From: Sandaracinobacter neustonicus
GTDB lineage: Bacteria; Pseudomonadota; Alphaproteobacteria; Sphingomonadales; Sphingomonadaceae
Direction: 5' to 3'
Length of the DNA: 64,000 bases
Assembly (NCBI RefSeq): GCF_006385875.1
Contig: NZ_VFSU01000032.1
Span: forward strand, 1-64,000
A program made the position numbers and the translations under genes. Shown piece by piece: positions 9,737 through 62,090 of this stretch. Numbering within the stretch: the first letter of the stretch is position 1; each line of letters begins with the position of its first letter. The notes under the pieces are model-generated. The model ran no database searches. It saw nothing but the letters and a program-made list of their open reading frames with translations, and was not told the DNA's origin.

Positions 9737-10134
9737 CGGCCCAACCTATATGTTTCAAGTGTCAGGGATTTCGCGGTCTCGAGCACCTCGATCGAGTTGC
9801 GATACTGGCGCGCGGTTTCCACGATCTCGACCAGTTCCGCGTTGGGATCGACGCCGGAGACATGGATATAACCGTCCGCATCGGCGAGCGGATGGCCCGG
9901 TTCATAGCGCTTTTGCGGCGCAGCATCGGCCTGCACCACGCCCAGCACTGACACGGTGGCCCGCCCCGTCGCCCCTTCATATTCGGTGGCGAACACTGGC
10001 TTCAGCGGCCGGTATGCGGTTTCGGCGCTGGCCGAAACGGCCCCGGCATTGGCAAGGTTGGAGGCGCTGCTGTTCAGCCGCACCAGCTGGGCGGACATGG
10101 CCCGCCCCGCGATGTCGAAAATGCCCATCGTCAT
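9733..10134 (-). CDS. flgC: flagellar proximal rod protein FlgC
   Basis: Proximal rod subunit of 133 aa. It has the N-terminal rod pattern (RLNSSASNLANAGAVSA, slightly degenerate since the TPG turn is replaced) and the C-terminal GVDPNAELVEIVETARQYRNSIEVLETAKSL stretch, whose V-N/P-E-E/A-L motif is typical. It is flanked by flgB and flgD with 4-base overlaps, the universal flgBC order. Confidence 0.93.
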   Translation of the reverse strand: MTMGIFDIAGRAMSAQLVRLNSSASNLANAGAVSASAETAYRPLKPVFATEYEGATGRATVSVLGVVQADAAPQKRYEPGHPLADADGYIHVSGVDPNAELVEIVETARQYRNSIEVLETAKSLTLETYRLGR

Positions 10135-10529
10135 GATTGCTCGCCCTTCAGCGCGCTGGTGAGGGACTGGATGCGTCCGTTCAGCATCCCCAGCGTGCCG
10201 CGATAACGCAGCGCGGTTTCCGCGAACTGCACCTGCTCCGTCGCCAGTTCCACGGTGTTGCCGTCCAGCGAAGGCTGCACCGGTTGGCGATAGGCCAGCC
10301 GCGCTTCGCCTTCGGTTTCGCTCGCCTGCAAATGTGCGGAGGATGTCCGCGCCATCGCCAGTTCAGAGCCGCTGCTTGCGAAGGCGGAGGTGAAATCCAG
10401 ATCGCGCGCCTTGTAACCCGGCGTCGCGGCATTGGCGATGTTGGAGGCGATCACACCCATCCGCTCACTGCGCAGGCGCAGTGCCGTGCCATGAACGCCG
10501 AAATATTGATCGAGCCTGTCTGCCATCAT
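10131..10529 (-). CDS. flgB: flagellar proximal rod protein FlgB, first gene of the flg operon
   Basis: Proximal rod subunit, 132 aa from the ATG at 10529. Motif RMGVIASNIANAATPGYKAR lies near residue 25. An open frame continues to 10586, but a sigma-54 promoter sits at 10570-10585 and would start transcription near 10559, so the upstream codons cannot be translated from that message. A ribosome-binding stretch (AGGGTGGAA) precedes the ATG pair. This gene heads an overlapping operon of 13 genes ending at motB, so its promoter sets expression of rod, hook, rings and stator together. Confidence 0.93.
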   Translation of the reverse strand: MMADRLDQYFGVHGTALRLRSERMGVIASNIANAATPGYKARDLDFTSAFASSGSELAMARTSSAHLQASETEGEARLAYRQPVQPSLDGNTVELATEQVQFAETALRYRGTLGMLNGRIQSLTSALKGEQS

Positions 10530-10569: not shown

Positions 10570-10585
10570 AGCAAGCGCCGTGCCA
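10570..10585 (-). promoter_or_regulatory. sigma-54 promoter of flgB operon
   Basis: On the minus strand the sequence reads TGGCACG, four bases (GCGC), TTGCT. This is an exact match to the RpoN core consensus TGGCACG-N4-TTGCW with the GG and GC dinucleotides 10 bases apart. It lies about 40 bases upstream of the flgB ATG, leaving a short leader. Sigma-54 control of rod/hook operons is established in several Alphaproteobacteria; its use here is inferred from sequence. Confidence 0.88.
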
Positions 10586-10626
10586 AACCGGCAATTCAGG
10601 GGGCAGGGCGGGGGAAGGGCAGGAAA

Positions 10627-10677
10627 GCGGCACGCCTGTGCCGCTGTGCAGGGCCGCAAGCGGCACAGATGTGCCGC
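10627..10677. promoter_or_regulatory. two identical palindromes, probable enhancer-binding sites
   Basis: Two copies of GCGGCAC-N4-GTGCCGC (18 bp each, at 10627-10644 and 10660-10677) lie 33 bp apart centre to centre, about three helical turns. They sit between the divergent flgB and flgA sigma-54 promoters, where an NtrC-family activator (FlbD/FleQ type) would bind. The architecture matches known bacterial enhancers; the protein that binds is not shown by the sequence. Confidence 0.75.
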
Positions 10678-10707
10678 TGCCGCACCGTATCAGCCACGGT
10701 GCGGGCA

Positions 10708-10723
10708 TGGCATGGGGGTTGCA
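10708..10723 (+). promoter_or_regulatory. sigma-54 promoter of flgA
   Basis: Reads TGGCATG, four G bases, TTGCA: one mismatch to the RpoN core, with GG and GC correctly spaced by 10 bases. It points toward flgA, whose ATG is 50 bases downstream, and mirrors the flgB promoter on the other strand. Confidence 0.8.
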
Positions 10724-10772: not shown

Positions 10773-11219
10773 ATGCGAAGGAAATTGTTGATCGGGCTGC
10801 TGCTCGCCGCTGCCCCTGCGAAGGCAGAGACACTGCAACAAGCGGCCGAGGCCTTCGCAGGCGCATCGCTCTCCATAGACCCGCGCCTCGCCAGTCGCAG
10901 TTGCCCCGGCGGCCATCGCTTTAACTGGGCCAGCAGCGGCGCAGCGGTGGTCGCCCGCTGCGGCCCCAATAACCCGGCGCTGGTGCTGCCGTTACAAGCG
11001 CAGCGCACCGCCGCCCAGCAACCCACGCTCCGCCGGGGGGACCGCATCTCCGCCGATATCGCGGGGGAGGGCTTCCGCATTCAGCTGGATGCCGTCGCGG
11101 AGCGGGTGGAGCGAGACGGCCGGGTGCTGCTGCGCAACGCGCGGAGCGGCCGCACGATTGCGGCCGTTCTGGATCAGGATGGCCGCCTGCGCCTTGGGGA
11201 CGATCTCAACAACCGCTAA
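10773..11219 (+). CDS. flgA: flagellar P-ring chaperone FlgA
   Basis: Periplasmic chaperone for FlgI assembly. The 148 aa start with a signal peptide (MRRKLLIGLLLAAAPAKA) and have a SAF-type C-terminal part: LRRGDRISADIAGEGFRIQL, then GRVLLRNARSGRTIAAVL (about residues 93-138), matching the FlgA pattern of R-G-D-V, G-F, and N-x-x-S-G-R. A GAGGGG Shine-Dalgarno precedes the ATG. The protein is shorter than enteric FlgA but within the alphaproteobacterial range. It is transcribed divergently from flgB behind its own sigma-54 promoter. Confidence 0.85.
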   Translation: MRRKLLIGLLLAAAPAKAETLQQAAEAFAGASLSIDPRLASRSCPGGHRFNWASSGAAVVARCGPNNPALVLPLQAQRTAAQQPTLRRGDRISADIAGEGFRIQLDAVAERVERDGRVLLRNARSGRTIAAVLDQDGRLRLGDDLNNR

Positions 11220-11309: not shown

Positions 11310-11609
11310 ATGGTCGATCAGGTTTCAGGTGGCGGCAACATCCCCTCGCGGGCCGCGCTTCAGCTTTCCAGCGGGAAGGCCCGCGTGGATACGGCCTCCA
11401 TCTCCGGCACGGCCCCGCGTGCCGCCGAAAACGCCCCGGCAAAGGCGCAGATTTCCGCCGCCGCGCGGGAGATGTCCGCCAGCCCGCCTGTCGATAGCGC
11501 CAAGGTGCAATCGCTGCGAAGCGCCATCGCCGAAGGCCGCTACCAGATCGACGCAGACAGCATCGCCTCGGCCATGATCCGTTCGGAACTGCCCGGCTCC
11601 ACCGCCTGA
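11310..11609 (+). CDS. flgM: anti-sigma-28 factor FlgM
   Basis: Small protein (99 aa) that holds FliA (sigma-28) inactive until the hook is complete and it is exported. The C-terminal sigma-binding region is recognisable: VDSAKVQSLRSAIAEGRYQI followed by DADSIASAMI (about residues 60-90). The N-terminal half is low-complexity and disordered-looking, as is usual. It lies 90 bp after flgA and may share its transcript. Its presence implies that class-3 genes such as the nearby flagellin are FliA-dependent. Confidence 0.85.
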   Translation: MVDQVSGGGNIPSRAALQLSSGKARVDTASISGTAPRAAENAPAKAQISAAAREMSASPPVDSAKVQSLRSAIAEGRYQIDADSIASAMIRSELPGSTA

Positions 11610-12429: not shown

Positions 12430-14621
12430 ATGACGATCATCAACACCAATCTCGCGGCCCTGAAGGCGCAGAACGGCAACAGGGTGGCGCAAGCCGGCCT
12501 CGATACGGCCATGGAACGGCTGTCGACAGGCCTTCGCATCAACAGCGCGAAAGACGATGCCGCCGGCCTCGCCATTTCGCAACGGATGACGGCAGATGTG
12601 CGCGGCCTCGCCGTCGCCATCCGCAACGCCGGAGACGGCATTTCGCTCGCCCAGACGGCGGAAACCGCGATGGGCGAAGTCACCAACATGCTGCAACGGA
12701 TGCGCGAACTGTCCGTGCAGGCCGCCAACGGCACCATCGCAGACGTGGACCGCGAAGCCCTTCAGGTGGAAGTCACCCAGCTCGTCTCCGAGATCGACAA
12801 TGTCGCCAAGCGCACCAGCTTCAACGGCATCAGTCTGCTGGATGGCTCGTCGAAGAATCTGGCGCTGCAAACCGGCTCCCGCGCGGGCGAAACCGTGACG
12901 ATGTCGATCGGCTCGGCCCGCACCGGCGATCTGGGCACGGGCAGCGTTCCCGGCCTCACCGCCACGGGTGCCTTCGCCACCTCCGCTGCACTGATGGCCT
13001 CGTCTCAGGCGCTGCAAGGCAATGATCTGCGCATCAACGGCGTGGTGATCGGCAGCTCGCGCAGCACCGACGATTCGCTGTCCAGCTCGGCCAAGGAAGC
13101 GAGCGCTATCTCCAAGGCCGCGGCCATCAACCGCGCGACCGCGCAAACCGGCGTCCGCGCCGTGGTGGGCACCACCACGATGACGGGCACCGCGATGACG
13201 GCCGCCGCGCTGACGGGCACCGTCACCATCAACGGCGTCACCACCGGCTCCATCACCACCAGCACCAACGCCGCCGCTTCGCGCACGGCCGTGGTGGACG
13301 CCATCAACCTCATCTCCGGGCAAACGGGCGTCCGCGCCATCGACACCGGCGATTCCAACCTCGGCATCCGGCTGGAAGCAGCAGACGGCCGCAACATTGA
13401 AGTCGCCTTCGATACCCTCACGGCAGCCTCCACCGGCCTGAAGGCGGGCGTGCAATCCGGCACTTACTCGCTGGTGTCCGATCAGGGCGGTCCCATCGTG
13501 ATCGATTCGGTCGGCACTGGCCGCCTCTCCCGCTCGGGCCTCGCGGCGGGCAGCTATGATCGCGGCGTCTCCACCCTCTCCACCGATGCCCGCGCTGTCG
13601 CCACCTCGGCCACCGGGGCAGACGCGCGGGTGCTGAACACTGGCGATCTGGTGCTGAACGGCGTCTCCATCCGCGCCTCCCGCGCGGCGGATGATACCTA
13701 TTCGGATACCACCGCCGGCTCCAGCACCAAGGCCGCAAGCGCTATCGCCATCGCCGCGGCGATCAACGAATCCTCCGCGCAAACCGGGGTTACGGCCAAG
13801 GCCGCCTCGCTCACCCTCGTCGGCTCCACCACAACGGTGATCGGCGCGGATGCAACGGCCACGCTCGTCATCAACGGCGTGTCGATGGATATCGCCCTGT
13901 CCGCCAGCGCAACGGCGCAGGAAACCCGCGAAACCGTCGCCAGCGCCATCAACAACAACAGCGGCACCACCGGCGTGACGGCGGTGGACAACGGCCTTGG
14001 CGGCCTCAGCCTCACCGCAGCAGACGGCCGCAACGTCGCCGTCTGGCTGGACAGCGATGAAGCCACCGCCGCCAATTTCGGCCTTGGCGGCATGACGATC
14101 GCGGGCACCGGCACCAGCTACACGGTAACAGGCGTCACAGATCCCACGGACGTCTCGGCCGCCACGGTGAACACGGCCTATGCTCAGGTGGTTCTGAAAG
14201 CGCCTCCACCATCGATCTGCGCGCAGGCAGCCAGGGCTTCGGCCCGGCCTCCAACTTCTCCGCACTGGGCTTCGAGGAAAACCGCTATGGCGCAGACCTC
14301 GGCGGCCTGAAGATCAAGGACGTGAATATCTCCACGCAGGCGGGCGCAACGGCGGCGCTGAACTCCATCGACGAAGCGCTGAAATCCATCTCCGTGAACC
14401 GCGCGGAACTGGGTGCCGTGCAGAACCGGCTGGAGGCGACGATCAGCAACCTCACCAGCGCCAGCAACAATACGGTCGCCTCGCGCTCGCGCATTCAGGA
14501 TGCGGATTTCGCGGCAGAGACCACTTCGCTGGCGCGCGGCCAGATCCTGACACAGGCCGCACAGGCGATGCTGGCGCAAGCCAACCAGAGCCAGCAGGGC
14601 GTGCTGCAACTGCTGCGGTAA
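12430..14621 (+). pseudogene. fliC: flagellin FliC, large form, interrupted by one-base frameshift
   Basis: Filament subunit of about 730 aa if read through. The N-terminal D0/D1 domain is canonical (MTIINTNLAALKAQN, then STGLRINSAKDDAAGLAIS). The C-terminal D1/D0 is in the next frame from about 14190 (RIQDADFAAETTSLARGQIL, ending QQGVLQLLR). The first frame runs into an unrelated tail and stops at 14310. One missing base near 14188-14192 (GTGGTTCTGAAAGC) explains the shift. The expanded middle domain contains two related modules, each with a flagellin IN-type region (LRINGVVIGSSRS and LVLNGVSIRASRA). A lone flagellin gene in an otherwise intact cluster makes assembly error plausible; a real knockout would mean no filament from this locus. 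Confidence 0.85.
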
Positions 14622-39205: not shown

Positions 39206-39274
39206 GCGGCGACGATAAACGATCCCGAGCGCGCAGGGGACTGGCAAAGAGGAGGGTCAGTCAGCTTCTGCTGA

Positions 39275-39302
39275 GAATCCGATAATCTATACTCCTGCAA
39301 GA
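39275..39302 (+). other. left attachment site (attL) of dif-integrated element
   Basis: XerC-type arm GAATCCGATAA and centre TCTATA, followed by CTCCTGCAAGA, which does not resemble a XerD arm. The 14 bases TCCGATAATCTATA are identical to those in the dif-like site at 42212-42225. Confidence 0.7.
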
Positions 39303-39314
39303 GGGTGGTGCCTC

Positions 39315-39351
39315 ATGTGCATCATGCCGCCGCAGGCGTCCTGATGCACAT
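39315..39351. repeat. inverted repeat near left end of element
   Basis: ATGTGCATCA and TGATGCACAT are perfect 10-bp arms separated by 17 bases. On single-stranded DNA this would be a stable hairpin. It may be a protein-binding site or a single-strand replication signal. Confidence 0.75.
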
Positions 39352-39387
39352 ATTAAACAGGCTGTAGTTGTGCTTCCGCCTTAGGAC

Positions 39388-39464
39388 TTATCCACAACTT
39401 TCGTAATTACTTCGAAAGGTCAGGGACTTAGCCTGTGGATAACCTGTGCATATCCTGTGGATAT
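39388..39464. other. DnaA-box cluster, putative replication origin of element
   Basis: TTATCCACA at 39388-39396, TGTGGATAA at 39434-39442 (both exact DnaA boxes in opposite orientation) and TGTGGATAT at 39456-39464 (one mismatch). A 6-bp hairpin (CTTTCG...CGAAAG, 39398-39418) with an AT-rich loop lies between them. This is the most AT-rich part of the element, as expected of a plasmid origin. Confidence 0.6.
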
Positions 39465-39537
39465 GTTGGGGAGAAGCTGGGGATATTGGCCCCTCCTCCC
39501 GTCGGGTCGAAAAAGCGAGGGGAGGGGCCTTGGTGGG

Positions 39538-39553
39538 TGGCACGATCTTTGCA
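39538..39553 (+). promoter_or_regulatory. sigma-54 promoter inside the element
   Basis: TGGCACG, ATCT, TTGCA: all 12 core positions of the RpoN consensus match, with GG and GC 10 bases apart. It points right, into the hairpin-rich GC region and antisense to the rep operon, not toward an obvious gene. Transcription would start near 39564, within the adjoining 7-bp repeats. Confidence 0.65.
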
Positions 39554-39580
39554 TAGGCACCTGCCTATTGTCGATAGGCA
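39553..39580. repeat. three alternating 7-bp half-sites
   Basis: ATAGGCA (39553-39559), TGCCTAT (39562-39568) and ATAGGCA (39574-39580) form two overlapping inverted repeats with 2-base and 5-base gaps. They cover the expected start site of the sigma-54 promoter, so they look like an operator or iteron-type binding site. Confidence 0.6.
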
Positions 39581-39699
39581 ACGGTCGTGGTAGCCGACTC
39601 GCAGCGCTGCTGTTTCGTGACAGGACCGCTGCGTCAGGCCCGCCGCATGTGCCGATGGTTGGGGTGCCCCAAGCGCCTCTATGCCAGCCTGTAAGCCGG

Positions 39700-40699
39700 T
39701 GGTCCTTTTCCCCTTTCAGTTGATGTGGTGCGGCCTGCGGCCGCGCGCTGTCTCAAGAGCGCCGCAGCCCTTCGGTCTGCGTCGAACGGCCCGCGCCCTT
39801 CGGTCGACGGGCCGGGGGCGGGGCGCGCTTCGCTGCGCCCCGGCGTTCGCGCCCTTCGGTCGCTCCGCTGGCGGGATGGCCTCGGGGTCTTTCCCCCCTC
39901 TCTCCGGCCACCACGGCTGCGCTTCGCTTGCCTCAAGCGTGCGTCCGGCTGTGCCCCCCTCTCGCGCCGTCTGGTGTGGTGCTGGCCCCGGACCTGCCCC
40001 GCCCGAGGCGCGCAGCGCAACCGCCGCGCCAACCCCCCGCCGCCATGCCCCGTCGCCTTCGGCTGGGGCGGCGGGGGGTTGTCACGGCGCTTGCTGGCCC
40101 GGCGTGGGAGCGCGCGTCTGGCCCCCCGGCCGTCCCGGCCGGTGGCGGCTGCCGCCGCCGTTCTGCTGCGCTGTCTGCGGTCGGCACCCCGTCACGCCCC
40201 TTGCAGCCGCCCCGCACCCGCCGCGCCAGCCGCCCCCTGTTCGCTGCGCTCCAGGGCGGCTGGCACGGCGGCTGCACGGCTGCAAGGGTCGCGCCGGGCT
40301 ACCGGCTGTCTTTTGCCGCCCGTGGCGGCGGGCTGACGCCCGCCCGGCGCGCACCGCTCCGCTTCGCTCCGCTGCGCCGGGCCCCCGGGGCCGCTCCGGG
40401 GGGCGCGCCCGGTCGCCCCCCGTGTTCGCTTCGCTCCCGGGGCCGCCCGGCCCCCCTGCGCGTCTCTCCGGGGGCCGCCACCCCCGGCACCCCACCGCGC
40501 CGCGCTGCGCGCGCGCCGCTGGGCCTTCGGCCTCCGGGCGGCTGCCGCCGCCGCCCGGGCGCGGCTCGCGCTCGCGCCACCCGTGTTCGGCGCGGCGGGG
40601 TGCGCGTGGCCCCGTCGCGCGCCCCCCGCACGCCGCGCGCGTGGCCCCGTCGAGCCCCCCCGAGGCTTCGCGGGGGTGGGGCTTCGCCCCCCCTCTCCG
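39700..40699. other. GC-extreme, hairpin-dense region without a convincing gene
   Basis: About 1 kb with very few A/T bases (for example only 8 of the 60 bases at 40381-40440). It is built from short inverted repeats, many closing on CTTCGG or GCTTCGC, such as GGGGCGC-N8-GCGCCCC near 39820 and CGGCCCG-N15-CGGGCCG just before it. Frames are open on both strands but their translations are Ala/Arg/Pro/Gly runs with no domain, and they contradict each other. It could be a structured RNA, a conjugation or packaging signal, or decaying sequence. Confidence 0.55.
40031..40080. repeat. long perfect GC hairpin
   Basis: AACCCCCCGCCGCC and GGCGGCGGGGGGTT are perfect 14-bp arms around a 22-base loop that itself contains GCCTTCGGC. 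This is the strongest single hairpin in the region. It may end transcription from either direction. Confidence 0.7.
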
Positions 40700-41227
40700 C
40701 TACGCTGTGGCCCCCTCTATCGTGGTGGGCGCGGGGAAGAGGGTGGGCGCGGCGGCCTCGTGCTGCTCGGTTCCCTCGGCGGTCTCACCACGCTCATCGC
40801 CATTGCGCTCTCCCTCACCCTTTGGTGCGCGGCCGCGCCGCCCCTGCTTGCCATGCGGCCGGGGTCCGCCTTTCGCAGGGTTCGCCCCCGGCTCGGCCGC
40901 GTCAAGCCCGCCTTCGGCCCCCTTCGGGGCTTCGGGGCTTGACACGGCCGCCCCGGCGGCTGGCGCGGAGGGCAGGGGAGGCGCGTTCGCACGCCGCGCC
41001 CTCCTCGCCTCGCTGCGCTGCCACTCGGCCATGATCAGGTGGTGAGCCGCCATGGTGGCCGCCTGATACTCGGCCGTGGCCTGCTGCACCGCCTCCTCCC
41101 GCTGCAACACTTCCAGCAGGTGGGAGAAGCCGGTGGGGCAGGGCAGCGCCCTCGCCTTGCGCAGCGCCGCCGTGGCCCGGTGCTCGCGCTGAAGCGCCCG
41201 GCGAAGCCTCATGCGCCGCTTTCTCAC
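40700..41227 (-). CDS. hypothetical element protein, basic N terminus and low-complexity tail
   Basis: Third gene of the leftward element operon, 175 aa. I use the GTG at 41227, which overlaps the stop of the preceding gene as GTGA; a TTG at 41239 and ATG at 41212 are alternatives. Residues about 1-80 are helical and strongly basic (KRRMRLRRALQREHRAT, LLEVLQREEAVQQATAEYQ), consistent with nucleic-acid binding or coiled coil. The second half is Ala/Gly/Glu-rich and disordered-looking, and its DNA carries nested TTCG hairpins (40904-40943). I recognise no family. Confidence 0.5.
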   Translation of the reverse strand: MRKRRMRLRRALQREHRATAALRKARALPCPTGFSHLLEVLQREEAVQQATAEYQAATMAAHHLIMAEWQRSEARRARRANAPPLPSAPAAGAAVSSPEAPKGAEGGLDAAEPGANPAKGGPRPHGKQGRRGRAPKGEGERNGDERGETAEGTEQHEAAAPTLFPAPTTIEGATA

Positions 41228-41610
41228 GGCTGCCACCAACGCGCGCGCTTCGCGCTGGGGGTCGCGCGCGCATTATGCACGCGCACACGCGTGCGAGGCT
41301 CCAGCCGGTCCAGCCGCTTGCACTCCTGTTCCCATGAGCGCGCCAAAGCGCGCCATGCGTTGCGCGATCTCTCCAGTTTCCGATACGCATCGGCCGCAAT
41401 TTGCAGTTCTGCGCGCAGAGTGGCCGCCTCGTCGGCGCAGTCCTGATACCCGGCCGCCCACTCTGCGGCGGCCTGTTCGGCCAAATCGCAGTGGTCGCAG
41501 CGCCCGTCAGGGGCAGGGGAGGGGGGAAGCGGCAGTGGTGCTGACCTATCGTTGGTCCACCCCTGAAACGGCCTGATCCACCGCGCGAAAGCATCTGTGG
41601 TTCTGCTCAT
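41224..41610 (-). CDS. hypothetical element protein with CxxC motif and coiled coil
   Basis: Second gene of the element operon, 128 aa. The ATG shares an ATGA overlap with the RepL-like gene. A Pro-rich segment precedes a CDHCDLAEQ motif (about residues 38-46). A long helical stretch (about 55-105, AATLRAELQIAADAYRKLER) with heptad character follows, ending in a basic tail. One CxxC pair plus a later Cys could bind metal. Not recognised; probably helps replication or maintenance, judged by coupling alone. Confidence 0.55.
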   Translation of the reverse strand: MSRTTDAFARWIRPFQGWTNDRSAPLPLPPSPAPDGRCDHCDLAEQAAAEWAAGYQDCADEAATLRAELQIAADAYRKLERSRNAWRALARSWEQECKRLDRLEPRTRVRVHNARATPSAKRARWWQP

Positions 41611-60020: not shown

Positions 60021-60085
60021 CGCCCCTGCCGTCGCATCCCGCCGCGCGTTTGCCAAGCCGCCCAATGCAGTTTACATCGGCGACA

Positions 60086-62090
<2,005 letters not shown>

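Follow-up and report, generated by a model that had tools for sequence, protein, structure and literature searches.

A putative shared control region with twin palindromes between the divergent sigma-54 promoters of flgB and flgA in Sandaracinobacter neustonicus and other Sphingomonadaceae

When two flagellar operons are read away from each other out of one short gap, can a single array of activator sites serve both? The question is posed by the 243 bp between the start codons of flgB and flgA in the window analysed here, by which we mean the whole stretch of 64,000 nucleotides from Sandaracinobacter neustonicus, at the start of its contig C32. On the minus strand, flgB (10134..10529; NCBIfam TIGR01396 FlgB, 104.1 bits against a cut-off of 59.05) heads an operon that continues downstream to about position 28 with flgC, D, E, F, G, H, I, J, K and L, motA and motB. 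On the plus strand the opposite side is headed by a gene for the P-ring chaperone FlgA (10773..11219), followed by flgM, the gene for an anti-sigma-28 factor (11310..11609, plus strand; PF04316, 49 bits against a cut-off of 25), with which it is probably co-transcribed. The ChapFlgA match in the window remains under its threshold (16.1 bits, cut-off 23.8), but all four tested homologues at the same position exceed the Pfam cut-off, and this supports the assignment of the divergent gene as flgA. Gene names other than flgB, flgA and flgM are our reading of the translations.

Palindromes and promoter cores in the flgB/flgA gap

The elements of the gap are arranged in the order flgB sigma-54 core, palindrome 1, palindrome 2, flgA core. 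The predicted sigma-54 (RpoN) core for flgB, TGGCACGGCGCTTGCT (10585-10570, minus strand), matches the consensus without a mismatch, as a sequence-only reading of this DNA had stated, and its count of one mismatch for the flgA core, TGGCATGGGGGTTGCA (10708-10723, plus strand), is likewise correct. It had further pointed to two GCGGCAC-N4-GTGCCGC palindromes 33 bp apart between the cores, and these are indeed present: palindrome 1 is GCGGCAC-GCCT-GTGCCGC (10627-10644) and palindrome 2 is GCGGCAC-AGAT-GTGCCGC (10660-10677), with 33 bp from start to start. Both are putative FlbD-type activator sites. Their arms are identical and can be extended to 8 bp (AGCGGCAC/GTGCCGCT), whereas the spacers differ (GCCT against AGAT). 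Palindrome 1 lies 41-42 bp from the flgB core and palindrome 2 about 31 bp from the flgA core. The description of the two promoters as "face-to-face" was mistaken, as they diverge back-to-back. The stretch from palindrome 2 to the flgA core also contains a third inverted repeat (10680-10704), with 9-bp arms and a 7-base loop (CCGCACCGT/ACGGTGCGG).

In the whole genome of 3,650,352 bases, palindromes 1 and 2 are the only perfect matches to GCGGCAC-N4-GTGCCGC, and the more relaxed CGGCAM-N4-KTGCCG has 16 matches, two of which fall in the flgB/flgA gap. The cores are weak evidence by themselves because a search of the window with up to two mismatches allowed returned 21 sites against 15.2 expected; the strength of the candidate flgB and flgA cores comes from their conservation in relatives. 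Elsewhere in the window, a GC-rich, gene-poor and repetitive stretch (39230-41300) contains several sigma-54-like matches, of which one, at 39538, is exact. The cluster of core-like matches at 39.5-40.3 kb, which is GC-rich and without flagellar genes, was set aside as probably due to chance, with the possible exception of the exact match.

Candidate activators at two tiers

The genome encodes six strong matches to sigma-54 activators. One of these, bEBP1 (331 aa; C28:115428-116420), combines an AAA+ sigma-54 domain, in which the GAFTGA loop is present, with an HTH_8 domain, and Pfam found no Response_reg domain across its 331 aa. Its closest solved relative is FlrC (4qhs, E=1.2e-69), and it scores 273.2 bits with the NCBIfam FlbD equivalog NF050807, short of the cut-off of 750. 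A fliE-like ORF directly follows the bEBP1 gene and is succeeded by genes read as fliF to flhB. The fleR and flrC genes also precede fliE.

The distribution of site types upstream of flgB points to bEBP1 as the protein that would use the twin palindromes. A FlgB match was obtained for 130 of 199 genomes of the family, in some cases a weak one, and the upstream region was examined in a non-random choice of 95 of these 130. Of the 80 rows that were scored as bEBP1-bearing, 68 have a perfect GGCAM-N4-KTGCC site, and none of the 15 bEBP1-less genomes has one, whereas a perfect site of the FleQ type, GTCRR-N4-YYGAC, shows the reverse pattern (0 of 80 bEBP1-bearing rows, and 10 of 15 bEBP1-less genomes, or 14 of 15 with one mismatch allowed; 0.2-0.7% in shuffles). 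A second, FleQ-like activator of this genome, bEBP2, has a match in all 15, the weakest of which (G161, 1.3e-71) is close to the range of NtrC paralogues. A second set of named genomes, whose species overlap in part with the first, gave a comparable picture: a perfect GGCA-N6-TGCC is present in 69 of 79, and seven of the ten that lack it have a perfect GTCRR site. On a weak tree of the FlgB N-terminal region bEBP1 changes six times, and both contrasts on supported branches pair it with the GGCA site; two contrasts are too few for significance (sign test p=0.5), and the phylogenetic independence of the link is weak. The GCGGCA-N6-TGCCGC of the window also fits CCCGGCA-N-TGCCGGG, given as the FlbD motif in excerpts of PMC3333781. 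On these grounds bEBP1 appears the likeliest binder of the twin palindromes. A point against it is that the flgB/flgA gap is the only obvious target region for it in the genome.

The product of the bEBP2 gene (355 aa; C24:192178-193242) has a FleQ-like AAA+ domain and HTH. Its nearest solved structure is FleQ (8p53, E=1.2e-72 over residues 14-350), and the motif RTTLVEK is common to both HTHs. A Pfam scan of bEBP2 detected no N-terminal FleQ regulatory domain, the AAA+ domain beginning at residue 22. Upstream of bEBP1 we found an exact sigma-54 core together with the palindromes CGTCAATTTTTTGACG and CGTCAACCATCTGACG, 32 bp apart; this twin has the form CGTCA-N6-TGACG and belongs to the FleQ/FlrA type. 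The expectation that the flgB/flgA palindrome would recur at other sigma-54 flagellar promoters of this genome thus failed: the fliE-operon promoter has a different palindrome, and no exact copy was seen at any of the other flagellar promoters. This difference is compatible with a tiered cascade and does not refute a shared enhancer. Exact CGTCAR-N4-YTGACG occurs four times in the genome, twice at the fliE-operon promoter; the other two sites (C32:78581 and C24:111008), one beside a MerR-like gene and one inside a predicted gene, have no sigma-54 core nearby and were discarded.

Of 50 bEBP1 loci, 13, that of this genome included, combine an exact core with one or more FleQ-type sites (up to one mismatch); 12 of the 13 have two or more, and the site nearest to the core lies 40-43, 52-53, 73 or 99 bp from it. 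A clear bEBP2 is encoded in 12 of these 13 genomes and was not seen in the remaining one (G159), which is 84% complete. Conversely, G129, G053 and G186 have bEBP2-like genes but lack a clear twin at bEBP1. Within 2 kb upstream of flhA and the sigma-28-like gene following it, no plus-strand core with up to two mismatches was found. Overall, the sequences suggest that the FleQ-like bEBP2 probably stands above bEBP1 in a two-tier cascade. The regulator had been anticipated as "FlbD/FleQ-type"; the site is indeed of the FlbD type, but the likely binder would be a receiver-less protein resembling FlrC, FleR and FlbD, with the FleQ-like protein probably one tier up.

It is possible, though we think it unlikely, that the palindromes are instead bound by bEBP2, or by a hetero-oligomer of bEBP1 and bEBP2 comparable to FleQ/FleT of R. 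sphaeroides. Both proteins are encoded in this genome, and excerpts of PMC7277832 describe a joint action of FleQ and FleT on class III genes and a fleT gene that heads the fliEFGHIJ operon, as bEBP1 does here. However, the GGCA site type occurs in genomes in which bEBP2 was not found at threshold (e.g. G081 and G149), and genomes with bEBP2 but no bEBP1 do not have it. Further, bEBP1 possesses an HTH of its own, while that of bEBP2 resembles the HTH of FleQ, whose class uses GTCA-N6-TGAC according to excerpts of PMC4641369.

Conservation and spacing of sites and cores

Most of the 95 flgB upstream regions contain one or two CGGCA-N6-TGCCG palindromes. Their inner bases are most commonly A...T; in the genus of the window and in Thermaurantiacus (g31) they are mostly C...G, giving CAC...GTG. 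A change in the HTH was considered as the source of this half-site variant, as three bEBP1 proteins from the genus of the window have ISERA and the other 47 of 50 have ISERT, but it does not explain the variant because in Thermaurantiacus the variant site is accompanied by ISERT. A pair of sites (up to two mismatches each, within 10-45 bp) is present in 74 of the 80 rows scored as bEBP1-bearing, with a spacing of 20-22 bp in 60 of the 74, of 31-33 bp in six and of 24-30 bp in none. The order core, site, site, core is retained in Sandaracinobacteroides hominis and S. sayramensis, both assigned to the genus of the window, in the two metagenome-assembled genomes L239 and L240, and in G173, in all of which the sites are 32-33 bp apart; those of S. 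sayramensis, L240 and G173 have one or two mismatches. In the first two of these genomes, which belong to the nearest named species, two mismatches are found in the counterpart of the flgA core. A different arrangement was seen upstream of flgB at one locus (L141, in G004), where three exact sigma-54 cores stand in tandem, 21 bp apart.

The distance between sites and cores was examined in 79 genomes that have a flgB-side core (up to one mismatch) and a nearby site. The gap from the flgB core to the nearest palindrome falls into the classes 32-33, 42-45, 52-56, 63-64, 74-76 and 88-90 bp, with outliers at 12, 57, 61, 67, 97, 111, 163 and 195 bp, and on both sides the gaps change in steps of about 10.7 bp. 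Tested for a period of 10.5 bp, the 63 genus-gap pairs on the flgB side give R=0.73 (with a peak of 0.75 at 10.8), a value matched by 0 of 20,000 uniform draws, although this significance is optimistic because the null is a uniform spacing and relatedness is handled only by merging equal gaps within a genus. The clustering is plain from the raw counts. A core facing in the opposite direction is present in 18 of the 79 genomes, against a shuffle background of 0.4%, and its 15 genus-gap values (R=0.83) fall in the same classes except for one at 20 bp. With the cores and sites on one face of the helix, one bound assembly could serve both directions.

The strongest hint of such a two-way use of one cluster comes from the bEBP1-less genomes. 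In seven of these 15 (G042, G122, G050, G090, G127, G185 and G118) the two cores flank one perfect palindrome, with up to two mismatches allowed in the opposite core; the gaps are 41-74 and 30-43 bp, and one of these genomes has 41 bp on either side. The same arrangement was seen at five named loci, G042 among them. Of the 15, G161 has no such site, and the sites of G181 and G012 lie outside the two cores. As the gaps in bEBP1-less genomes agree within about 2 bp with the classes of the GGCA sites, the type of site seems to have been exchanged with the phase kept. The earlier proposal that one activator array could drive both directions thereby gains from comparison with relatives (twin sites between the cores, quantised gaps on both sides and relatives with a single palindrome), and we regard it as well supported by these sequences. 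We are evenly divided over the wider proposal that the flgB/flgA region of Sphingomonadaceae is a phase-locked two-way switch, in which one activator array would have to share a helical face with each of two opposite promoters, spacing would change only by whole turns and a FleQ-type or FlbD-type activator would be exchanged together with its site while the phase is kept.

These data also bear on the suggestion that the palindromes act on flgB only, the flgA-side core being a chance match and flgA being read from another promoter. The mismatches of the flgA core, one here and two in the nearest named species, and the discrepancy between 79 genomes with a flgB side and only 18 with an opposite core would be in keeping with it. 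Against it stand the low background for opposite cores, the recurrence of the same helical classes in their gaps, bar the one at 20 bp, and the palindromes between two phased cores in the seven bEBP1-less relatives. We therefore consider a restriction to flgB improbable.

Proposed mechanism, its state in this strain and known systems

Considered as a whole, shared control of flgB and flgA by bEBP1 from the twin palindromes, with bEBP2 one tier above, seems to us quite probable. In this model flgB...motAB and flgA-flgM would be class III flagellar operons that share the gap for their control, and sigma-54 polymerase would transcribe each of them from its own divergent promoter. Each palindrome would bind a dimer of bEBP1, the receiver-less FlrC/FleR/FlbD-type AAA+ activator. 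With their sites separated by three helical turns, the dimers would nucleate a single AAA+ ring able to reach the polymerase at either core over about 31-42 bp of DNA. In turn bEBP1 would be produced from the fliE operon, where the sigma-54 promoter and its twin CGTCA-N6-TGACG sites would respond to bEBP2. Observed here are the sequences and how far they are conserved, the classes of spacing, and the link of site type to bEBP1. From these we infer that the proteins bind, that both cores are transcribed, that a ring forms, and how the regulation is directed and the cascade ordered.

The state of two genes complicates the picture for this strain. A full copy of rpoN on contig C16 (locus L322) has a frame change near the C-terminal RpoN box (C16:94335-94815), as does a partial copy at the start of contig C6 (C6:2-389), and in both rpoN stretches of the assembly the sigma-54 DNA-binding domain is split over two frames. 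This domain is unbroken in all five relatives compared, namely S. hominis, S. sayramensis and three Thermaurantiacus genomes. The flagellin gene (window 12431-14621) is interrupted too, with a frame shift near 14200 that leaves the N-terminal part and Flagellin_C (14322-14621) in different frames. The flagellin break reflects either a sequencing error or a broken gene, and the rpoN breaks reflect an assembly error, a duplicated contig or real decay. Together they imply either indel errors in the assembly or a decaying sigma-54 flagellar system, in which the gap would possibly be inert in this strain. That the region is such a relic, kept in relatives and out of use here, would be in keeping with both sets of breaks, but the control region itself, with its palindromes, their phase and the flgB core, is intact in this assembly. 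Moreover, indel errors in a draft of 34 contigs are an equally simple reading, and the second rpoN stretch, being at a contig edge, may be an assembly duplicate. We accordingly think it rather unlikely that the region is a relic.

A role of the twin also, or mainly, as a repressor site, by which the two promoters could be driven oppositely, has still less in its favor. FlbD of Caulobacter both activates and represses at ftr sites, as excerpts of PMC3930126 report, and the extra inverted repeat adjoins the flgA core. However, in the window and in close relatives the palindromes are upstream of both cores and overlap neither, and inspection by eye did not reveal the extra repeat in the gap of two sister species, so that we deem such a role very unlikely. 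Finally, although GC-rich palindromes arise more easily in GC-rich DNA, chance or a structural repeat unconnected with activation (a terminator or REP) can practically be dismissed, as two 7-bp-arm N4 palindromes of any sequence appeared in only 14 of 20,000 first-order Markov shuffles of the 243-bp gap, and position, spacing and phase are conserved over dozens of genera.

The proposed control by bEBP1 and bEBP2 resembles several known systems in its parts. The FlbD/ftr system of Caulobacter crescentus, with ftr2 and ftr3 at the divergent flaN/flbG units (Mullin and Newton 1993), shares with it sigma-54 flagellar promoters, a GGCA/TGCC palindrome and a divergent pair with common sites. It differs in that the pair is flaN/flbG and not flgB/flgA, in that ftr2 and ftr3 are termed downstream elements there, and in that FlbD has a receiver domain and a FliX partner (excerpts of PMC3096577 and PMC3930126), while bEBP1 lacks a receiver. 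In the FlrA-FlrBC cascade of Vibrio and the FleQ-FleSR cascade of Pseudomonas, a master regulator acts on a bEBP of the FlrC/FleR type, which in turn acts on the flgB rod and hook genes with sigma-54 (excerpts of PMC7064773). The best solved matches here, FleQ for bEBP2 and FlrC for bEBP1, correspond to these tiers; FlrC and FleR, however, are response regulators with kinases, unlike bEBP1 without its receiver and bEBP2 without an N-terminal domain. In the Fla1 system of R. sphaeroides, FleQ drives an operon comprising a second sigma-54 activator and fliEFGHIJ, and both proteins then drive class III genes including flgM (excerpts of PMC7277832). FleQ and FleT form a hetero-complex there, whereas here each tier seems to own a palindrome type.

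The same pair of motifs is known from Desulfovibrio vulgaris, with GGCA-N-TGCC for the FlbD-like DVU1063 and yGTCA-N6-TGACr for the FleQ/FlrA-like DVU2894. Excerpts of PMC3333781 give GGCAxxxxTGCC for the FlbD homologue and CCCGGCAxxxxxTGCCGGG for FlbD, and those of PMC4641369 give the second motif as well as divergent sigma-54 operons with a common activator. Like bEBP2, DVU2894 lacks an N-terminal domain according to excerpts of both sources. In D. vulgaris no conserved sigma-54 promoter was found near DVU2894, whereas here bEBP2-type sites precede the bEBP1 operon, and DVU1063 is a response regulator, unlike bEBP1.

What is already known, then, comprises the parts by kind, common sites in divergent sigma-54 flagellar units and the order from FleQ/FlrA through FleR/FlrC to flgB; the phase-locked spacing and the swap of sites seem new. 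The open-licence literature gave us no account of the sites from Sphingomonadales, of two tiers that both use receiver-less proteins, or of site-to-core distances that step by the helical turn, which is weak evidence of novelty. In the usual picture of sigma-54 promoters, enhancers act by looping and need no precise position. The dozens of genera compared here offer a natural record of a site-to-promoter distance that changes turn by turn on both sides of one shared cluster of sites. If the proposed mechanism is true, the gap would allow a direct test of how one AAA+ assembly serves two promoters, and of how a regulator can be swapped together with its site without loss of geometry. The flagella of Sphingomonadaceae would also take a place in the FleQ-to-FlrC/FlbD scheme, there with proteins that lack a receiver; how the state of assembly is sensed without a phosphorelay then becomes a question.

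Apart from the flagellar genes, an Rfam search of the window gave a TPP riboswitch (RF00059, 60.7 bits) at 60081-60190 as its sole match. The riboswitch precedes a large ORF (60141-62090), possibly thiC, or overlaps its start as called.
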